Source of the DNA: an uncultured Lachnospiraceae bacterium | GTDB taxonomy: Bacteria > Bacillota > Clostridia > Lachnospirales > Lachnospiraceae | Direction: 5' to 3' | NCBI GenBank assembly: GCA_947624815.1 | Contig: CANQME010000007.1 | Location: forward strand, 1-47,714 | Length of the DNA: 47,714 nucleotides | Part shown: positions 1,468 through 3,131 of the stretch, piece by piece | Layout of the letters: each line of letters opens with the position of its first letter | How positions within the stretch are numbered: the stretch's first letter is position 1 | Notes under the pieces: generated by a model | Database searches by the model: none | What the model was told of the DNA's origin: nothing | The model's input: only the letters and a program-made list of their open reading frames with translations | Position numbers and translations under genes: made by a program

Positions 1468-1541
1468 GCGTGACAGTTACACGAGACAGTTACGCGAGAC
1501 AGTTACGCGAGACAGTTACGCGAGACAGTTACGCGAGACAG
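1468..1541. repeat. 13-bp tandem repeat, unit gcgagacagttac, about 5.7 copies
   Basis: Direct reading: units at 1468, 1481, 1494, 1507, 1520 and a partial unit from 1533. The partial copy is the start of the left arm of the 1533-1790 structured element. Confidence 0.95.
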
Positions 1542-1790
1542 GCAGGGGCCGGGACATATCCTGTGCGCTCATGACTCCGAAGGGAAGTCTTTCTAGATTC
1601 AAAAACGCCAGTTTGAGGGCAACGGCAAATTCGCGTGAACTCCTGATGAGTTCACGCTCAGGTTGCCGCTCCGCCCATGACTTGTGGTCATGGGCTCCGA
1701 CCCTCAAACCCGTCGTTTTTTCATTAAGAAAGACTAACCCTTCTCCGTGAAATCGCGCCCAGAATGTGTCCCGGCCCCTGCCTGTCTCGC
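1533..1790 (+). ncRNA. Structured element copy 1 (candidate ncRNA or folded DNA repeat)
   Basis: 24-bp perfect outer stem 1533-1556/1767-1790, imperfectly extended to 1568/1755. Nested helices GAAGGG/CCCTTC (1579-1584/1738-1743), AGTCTTTCT/AGAAAGACT (1586-1594/1727-1735) and GTTTGAGGG/CCCTCAAAC (1611-1619/1701-1709). Two apical hairpins, including CCATGAC-TTGTG-GTCATGG (1675-1693). Strand is arbitrary. Confidence 0.8.
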
Positions 1791-1960
1791 TGGTTTTCGC
1801 GGGCGCGACAAACTGCTTATCGACTCCTTTGCGGTGCGTAAAATACTCTTGCAGAACTATTGTATCCGAATCCCTCTATCCCTTTGAGGTGGCTTATTTC
1901 TCAACCGTCTGGAAAACAACAGCGGTAATTCGCTTTTGTCTCTAGCGCCTGCGAAGCACA

Positions 1961-2200
1961 GCGGTCGGAAGTCCCACCGTATGCGCGATTTCGAGGAGGA
2001 GGGTTAGAGTGTCTTAGGCAAAAAAGTGCCGGTTTGGGGGTCTGCGGCCATGACCACAAGTCATGGACGCAGTGTCAGTCTGAGCGGGAATTTCTTCAGA
2101 AATTCCCGCGAATCTGACAGTGCCCCCAAACCGGCACTTTTTTGTCTTAGAGACTCTTCCCTCCGGAACCATGAGCGCATACGGTGGGACTTCCGACCGC
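1961..2200 (-). ncRNA. Structured element copy 2, inverted relative to copy 1
   Basis: 26-bp perfect outer stem 1961-1986/2175-2200. Perfect 21-bp inner stem 2020-2040/2123-2143. Two apical hairpins, one containing the same ccatgaccacaagtcatgg (2048-2066). Its reverse complement aligns with copy 1 across all loops. Confidence 0.8.
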
Positions 2201-2272: not shown

Positions 2273-3040
2273 CTACACGATCTCCTCCAGCGCCCGAATT
2301 TCCACACCTTCCTCCGTCAGCGCCCCGCGGATCTTCTCCACGAACGCCAGCGCCTTCGCGCCGTCCCCATGGACACAGACGGAATCCGCCCGGATCGGAA
2401 TATCCTTCCCGGTGATCGCCGTCACCTTCTGCTCCTTCACCATACGGATCACCCGCGCGATGGCCTCATCCTCATCCGTGATCATAGCCCCTTCCTTGCG
2501 GCGGTTCACCAGCGTCCCGTCCTCTTCATATGCCCGGTCCGCGAAAACCTCCTGCGCCGTGCGGAGCCCCAGATCCATGGCCGCGTGGGCCAGCTCGCCG
2601 CCCGATAAGGCCAGCACGATCAGGTTCGCGTCATACGTCTTCACCGCCTCGCAGATCGCCTTCGACAGCGTATAATCCTTAGCCGCCATATTATAGAACG
2701 CTCCATGCGGCTTCACATGCTGCATCTTCATGCCGTGAGCCCACAGGAATGCGTCCAGAGCGCCCAGCTGATACAGCGTATACGCCTTCGCCTCCTCCGG
2801 CGATACCACCATGTTCCTGCGTCCGAATCCCATCAGATCCGGAAAACCGGGATGCGCTCCCACACGGATGCCTGCGGCAGCCGCCATCGCAATGGTCTTA
2901 TCCATCACCACCGGGTCCGAGGCGTGAAAGCCGCAGGCCACATTGGCGGACGTCACCAGCGGGATGATCTTATCGTCATTTCCCAGTGTATAACGTCCGA
3001 AGCTCTCCCCCAGGTCGCTGTTTAAGTCAACACGATACAT
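2273..3040 (-). CDS. pxpA: 5-oxoprolinase subunit PxpA (LamB/YcsF family)
   Basis: [23 protein letters not shown]...[15 protein letters not shown]...[16 protein letters not shown]...VKPHGAFYN. Confidence 0.93.
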
Positions 3041-3131
3041 ATCTCTCCACTCCTTTTCCTTCTGTCCGGCAGCCGCCGTCATCTTCCAGATACAGCCCAA
3101 ACGCCGGACACACATACCGGAATCAGCCCTC

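Follow-up and report, generated by a model that had tools for sequence, protein, structure and literature searches.

Near the left end of the window, the 47,714-nt stretch of Lachnospiraceae DNA analysed here, two long inverted segments with a strong predicted fold separate two convergent genes. The original prediction, made without database searches, held them to be two copies of an apparently undescribed structured element and left open whether that element acts as RNA or as folded single-stranded DNA. We asked what kind of element this is and what maintains its fold.

A foldable unit between convergent genes

The locus is framed by an aminotransferase class IV, ilvE-like ORF (269–1444, + strand; Pfam Aminotran_4, E = 2.7e-36), whose TGA stop codon occupies 1442–1444, and by a convergent gene of the LamB/YcsF family (2273–3115, − strand; Pfam LamB_YcsF, E = 3.4e-103), which ends at 2273. 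Directly abutting the ilvE stop is a decayed left terminal inverted repeat (TIR; TGAACGGTGGTCGGGAAGGATAAGCG, 1445–1470, + strand), recognized by comparison with the TIRs of nearly all other units, which carry the family consensus TGCRYAYRGTCGYGRRAGRTACGCG in inverted orientation at their ends. Then come 13-nt tandem repeats (GCGAGACAGTTAC, 1469–1533, + strand; repeat search, spacing 13) that copy the start of hairpin A. This array at the left base, a probable slippage product, belongs to the left edge of the unit, which corrects the original prediction; similar arrays of 11–13 nt occur in other copies of the source genome. The array leads into structured hairpin A (1533–1790, + strand), whose core (1568–1754, + strand) matches covariance model R1 at 202 bits, followed by a 170-nt linker (1791–1960) and hairpin B (1961–2200, − strand; core 1986–2175), which aligns with A in inverted orientation. 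The right TIR (CGCGAGGGGTACGCG on the − strand, 2198–2212) marks the right limit of the duplicated unit described below.

The coordinates first proposed for the two copies are correct, and the consensus loops, three-way junction, H1 hairpin and H2 hairpin (CCATGAC-TTGTG-GTCATGG) are found in both, with the H2 apical hairpin located by pattern search at 1676–1692 (+ strand; CATGACTTGTGGTCATG) in A and at 2049–2065 (− strand) in B. The outer stems are 92% complementary in A (1533–1568 with 1755–1790) and 100% complementary in B (1961–1986 with 2175–2200), and a repeat finder pairs inverted arms of the two copies (1651–1758 with 1983–2090) at 78% complementarity over 108 nt. Predicted folding energies are −159.6 kcal/mol for A (z = −16.4) and −165.1 kcal/mol for B (z = −17.2), with 0 of 200 dinucleotide shuffles as good in either case. 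A/T tracts border the GC stems of both hairpins. A pattern scan for terminator-like sites was weak, returning 2 against a shuffled mean of 0.9; the one plausible site, a stem followed by a T tract, lies inside B (2119–2138, + strand).

A dispersed family of inverted hairpin pairs

A chance local inverted duplication is ruled out, given no fewer than 20 genomic copies and a covariance model that holds across genera: the source genome has 20 occurrences of CATGACTTGTGGTCATG and none of the reversed control pattern. This genome contains at least 14 A-type and at least 9 B-type copies; a BLAST search with copy A returned 45 matches, corresponding to about 24 hairpins, and A(+)–B(−) pairs stand at six places. 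The two copies are therefore real but not an isolated pair, being rather a single unit, bounded by TIRs, within a dispersed family. Positions 1531–2212 are 99% identical to a unit at a second locus (G000:C8:14918-15599), and similarity stops sharply at both edges, on the right at 2212, so the whole A–linker–B unit was copied recently. The linker is the same in both and travels with the unit.

Units follow a common layout of TIR, hairpin A, linker, inverted hairpin B and TIR over about 680–770 bp, each hairpin being a quasi-palindrome of 240–450 nt with a conserved three-way-junction core. By manual count, 36 of the 37 hairpin pairs in the loci inspected stand face to face, the exception being in L298. 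Apparent lone-A units contain a second giant hairpin, type X, with basal loops similar to those of A and B. Type X occurs in L129, L155 and L156 and as the second hairpin of L081, L105, L108 and others; since it combines the same basal loops with a different apex, the fold is modular. In L099 (1513–1809) and L122 (1518–1814), which lie beside the same orthologous gene, an extra 44-nt hairpin separates H1 from H2, making the three-way junction four-way. A few H1 'alleles' (GTGAACTCCTGATGAGTTCAC, GAGAATTTCTGAAGAAATTCTC, GAGAAATCCTGAAAGGATTTCTC and others; A2 alignment, H1 stem columns 68–94) recur across subfamilies A, B and C, as though they were modules that had been swapped.

Within the genus, 9 of 26 genomes carry the family. 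Covariance modelling, which the original prediction had proposed, found many homologues in the source genome and other Lachnospiraceae. A first model, built from 29 same-genus cores, detected them in 12 other Lachnospiraceae genera, with copy numbers reaching at least 27 per genome among the matches listed, and a second in 24 of 280 sampled Lachnospiraceae genera and 32 of 396 genomes; E-values in these searches are rough, and per-genome counts in the large searches are lower bounds. Distant copies have the same core, with outer arms of up to about 180 bp. Across 392 genomes of the class Clostridia, the second model matched only the source genome and, marginally, one other (E = 8e-4). The marginal match, L302 in G496 from another family of the class, folds as a long stem topped by two hairpins and is a possible distant relative. 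A strict pattern search matched, among named genomes, only rabbit-gut Lachnospiraceae MAGs.

The element has kept its status as apparently undescribed. An Rfam 15 covariance search of the whole window gave 0 matches, and a search of 1400–2300, even at E = 5, returned only the microRNA family mir-1329 (E = 2), which we take as a chance match; these searches rule out a known RNA family. Phage and plasmid searches gave no match to the element, and literature searches found no description of this repeat family. Two outcomes had been named at the outset as telling against the proposal, a known-family match and a lack of further copies or covariation; we found no such match and, instead of the second, many more covarying copies.

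Fold conservation and the case for DNA

In the core alignment, 95.0% of cells are paired and 55 of 57 pairs have changed on both sides. The covariation score is 0.892, compared with 0.211 for shuffled and at most 0.147 for slid alignments (0 of 500 shuffles as good), in an alignment that was fitted to the structure; single-sequence folds made independently give the same architecture. The analysis thus supports the compensatory changes, variable helices and invariant loops first seen in two copies. Near-invariant features comprise the A–A mismatch in CTAAG/CTAAG, the ATTC/TCA internal loop and the apical loops of H1 and H2; A is found in 100% of sequences at alignment column 36 and in 96% at column 233.

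The further claim, that variable helices with kept pairing indicate selection on a fold, lacks support in that form. Compensations are almost purely Watson–Crick: of 4,797 core cells, 71 (1.5%) are G–T and 91 (1.9%) A–C, even though a structure-fitted model would favour G–T. With G–T no commoner than A–C, the core lacks the RNA-type helix pattern in which G–U far exceeds A–C. Moreover, arms of 30–180 bp pair at 92–100% in many copies, and between close aligned paralogues the cores match while arms of up to 180 bp are wholly replaced, unrelated yet still complementary. Template switching in DNA replication or between palindrome arms yields one-step compensatory changes without selection (PMC8794818), and we therefore do not take compensation alone as proof of selection. 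Selection is better argued from the loops and the A–A mismatch, which have not been copied away.

Helix changes almost confined to Watson–Crick pairs, together with complete arm turnover under kept complementarity, favour maintenance at the DNA level over a classic RNA; as a reading of the sequence pattern, this points to a folded strand or to template switching. In G277 and the source genus, whole folds show no strand bias. Sense-strand G–U exceeds that of the other strand in whole folds of G110 (181 versus 95), G229 (49 versus 11) and G060 (56 versus 26), counts that come from related, not independent, copies; the excess is a weak but real hint of RNA-level constraint in these lineages.

Could the fold simply be the by-product of an ordinary MITE or foldback repeat, its palindromes tidied only by template switching and without function beyond transposase-binding TIRs? 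The units are TIR-bounded, short, non-coding and multi-copy, their arms turn over freely, and one-step compensation by template switching is known (PMC8794818). Neutral arm copying should, however, also repair the A–A mismatch, the A/AA bulge and the asymmetric internal loop, all of which are near-invariant, and the core fold is common to 24 genera while arms and TIRs differ. Neither a parent transposon nor a target duplication was found: a TIR search for a longer, autonomous unit returned none, no hairpin pair among the matches listed from three complete genomes encloses a transposase-sized gap, and inspection of flanks revealed no convincing target-site duplication, relatives' sites being too diverged for comparison. 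We consider this explanation unlikely.

Docking of units at stop codons

In several genomes, units closely follow stop codons, and most such sites separate convergent or tandem genes. Docking is most exact in G110, where 21 of 22 scored unit ends start directly after an in-frame TAA, TAG or TGA, convergent pairs dock at stops with both ends, and the sole non-docking end faces a promoter. G060 follows the same pattern, and in the source genus the gap from stop to unit is mostly 0–20 nt. In G071, stop docking was not seen and copies are mostly at other sites. Gene calls for this analysis came from a simple codon model; the docked stops are natural, because Pfam shows flanking proteins (DegV and an amidohydrolase, for example) to be complete. 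The stop codon is not part of the TIR, since the promoter-side end in G110 has none and the stop varies among TAA, TAG and TGA. Nor can growth of palindromes into local flanks be the sole cause of docking, as the G110 TIR sequence is common to several loci. Where G110 has its unit at the gpsA locus, three sister species carry one of another kind, bounded by other TIRs, and coding similarity stops at the stop codons.

Two observations stand beside these. Units with unrelated TIRs and hairpins, apparently of another family, also span stop codon to stop codon in L354, L355 and L356 (G847, G848 and G774). At L250 (1726–3099, − strand), one ORF fuses isopropylmalate-synthase domains (HMGL-like, LeuA_dimer) with an AraC-type helix-turn-helix domain.

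Placement at gene ends is what recommends a cis-acting RNA element: a dispersed, structured 3′-UTR or bidirectional terminator/mRNA stabilizer that spread long ago and is kept by selection. Units abut natural stops; of 45 single copies outside the source genus, 34 have the orientation of the gene that lies 5′ of them; and convergent and tandem sites outnumber divergent ones (28 + 25 versus 5 and, in an overlapping set made up mainly of source-genus copies, 23 + 41 versus 5). The A/T tracts flanking the GC stems of A and B fit as well, as do the ordinary terminators that follow ilvE in relatives. On the other hand, the core has no G–U preference, although a need to fold on two strands could explain that; T tracts are unconserved in C-type and several distant copies; invariant internal loops and a three-way junction are needless for a plain terminator; and the G071 copies and the poor terminator scan fit badly. 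We hold this account to be doubtful, yet it deserves to be taken seriously. In relatives, the place of the unit at the ilvE–YcsF site is taken by an ordinary terminator or by another repeat, and a different repeat (GGGAAAGCCAGAGACACACGGCCTACCCCC ...) fills this intergenic site in three of them (L324, L329 and L344).

Exact sense-orientation docking could also suggest a retro-element, in which a structured RNA would enter mRNAs at their stop codons and then be converted back into DNA, given that a stop codon is recognized as such only on mRNA. Such an origin is highly improbable in view of the strand-symmetric pairing in G277 and the source genus, the docking of convergent units with both ends and the absence of a linked reverse transcriptase.

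A proposed mobile DNA element with foldable ends

Our preferred reading, at a probability of roughly one half, takes the window element for a copy of a non-autonomous mobile DNA element whose ends are giant foldable hairpins and which may also serve as a 3′-end terminator. It draws on the dispersal of the family, the recently copied whole unit, the terminator or other repeat that relatives have at this site, the TIRs and face-to-face hairpin pairs, the fold common across genera, the near-invariant loops and helix change that is almost only from one Watson–Crick pair to another. The hairpins would fold while the DNA is single-stranded, and a putative recombinase or transposase acting in trans would recognize the loops, bulges and A–A mismatch of both inverted ends and move the unit. 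Template switching or hairpin repair would re-copy one arm from the other, giving fast arm drift with complementarity kept, and selection would hold the loops meanwhile. Units after stops may also act as, or replace, the 3′-end terminator. Against the mobile-element reading, searches for Y1_Tnp, and for enclosed transposases among the matches listed from three complete genomes, identified no mobilizing enzyme, and exact in-frame stop docking is hard to explain by a DNA transposase. The sense-strand G–U excess in G110, G229 and G060 also tells against it, as do sites common to different species, by which many copies are old.

A Y1 transposase of the RAYT type, mobilizing the units as giant REP/BIME-like elements, would be the obvious candidate for the enzyme: inverted palindrome pairs, conserved mismatches and convergent or co-directional sites are as described for REPs (PMC3733652), and RAYT-like proteins are present in G110 and G060. 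Y1_Tnp matches are, however, absent from the source genome, from five other carriers in the genus, from G172 (99% complete) and from G256 (closed, 100% complete), and none of the Y1 genes examined adjoins an element. Y1/RAYT is therefore not required and is disfavoured as a present mobilizer. The units also lack a GTAG or CGTC tag, their hairpin edges reading RKWAC|GC ... GC|TG, and we give this explanation very little credence. The RAYT-like Y1 proteins at L378 (2852–3784) and L379 (2888–3661), apparently vertically inherited, adjoin a prolyl-tRNA synthetase-like gene in two genera, with no adjacent repeats.

Tentatively, and with more doubt than conviction, the family may represent a new form of mobile DNA that is recognized by its folded three-dimensional core and not by sequence, has its arms rewritten by arm-to-arm copying and is inserted precisely at stop codons by a novel enzyme. 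Compensatory changes are the usual gold standard for functional RNA structure, and the family offers a natural test case in which they arise almost without wobble intermediates, so that covariation scores alone would mislead. Each genome also supplies dozens of paralogues in which to follow arm turnover. The exact docking of a repeat at the stops of unrelated genes poses a sharp mechanistic question and, if the fold is the recognition signal, a new folded-DNA recombinase is to be found in common gut bacteria.

Comparison with known systems

Among the closest known systems are REP and BIME repeats. These are palindromes with conserved mismatches that lie in intergenic DNA where genes converge or run in the same direction, frequently as inverted pairs, and they are thought to move as folded single-stranded DNA with RAYT (TnpA_REP) transposases (PMC3733652). 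The present family is about ten times longer, has a three-way-junction core, bears no GTAG/CGTC tag and has no required or linked Y1 gene. With MITEs and foldback elements it shares short, non-coding, TIR-bounded, multi-copy units; it differs in its conserved internal fold and in arm turnover with the core kept over 24 genera, and no target duplication or parent transposase was seen.

Integron attC sites are variable palindromes after gene stop codons, a description that would also fit the present units. Recognition as folded single-stranded DNA hairpins is a feature of attC (PMC6393395). Unlike attC, these 240–450-nt elements lie beside chromosomal housekeeping genes (the flanking genes inspected are ordinary chromosomal ones), in inverted pairs with TIRs and apparently without cassette arrays. 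The bcr repeats of Bacillus cereus and other stem-loop families are likewise dispersed and predicted to fold as RNA (PMC2267715). The present family, in contrast to these and other folded interspersed repeats, has no Rfam match. To our knowledge, a core fold that spans many genera with helix turnover also sets it apart from them.

The window copies belong to a family of giant, foldable DNA repeats, not filed before, that follow gene stops in at least 24 Lachnospiraceae genera. The family broadly resembles REP/BIME or foldback repeats but fails on those of their defining features that were tested, and there is a real chance that it is categorically new.
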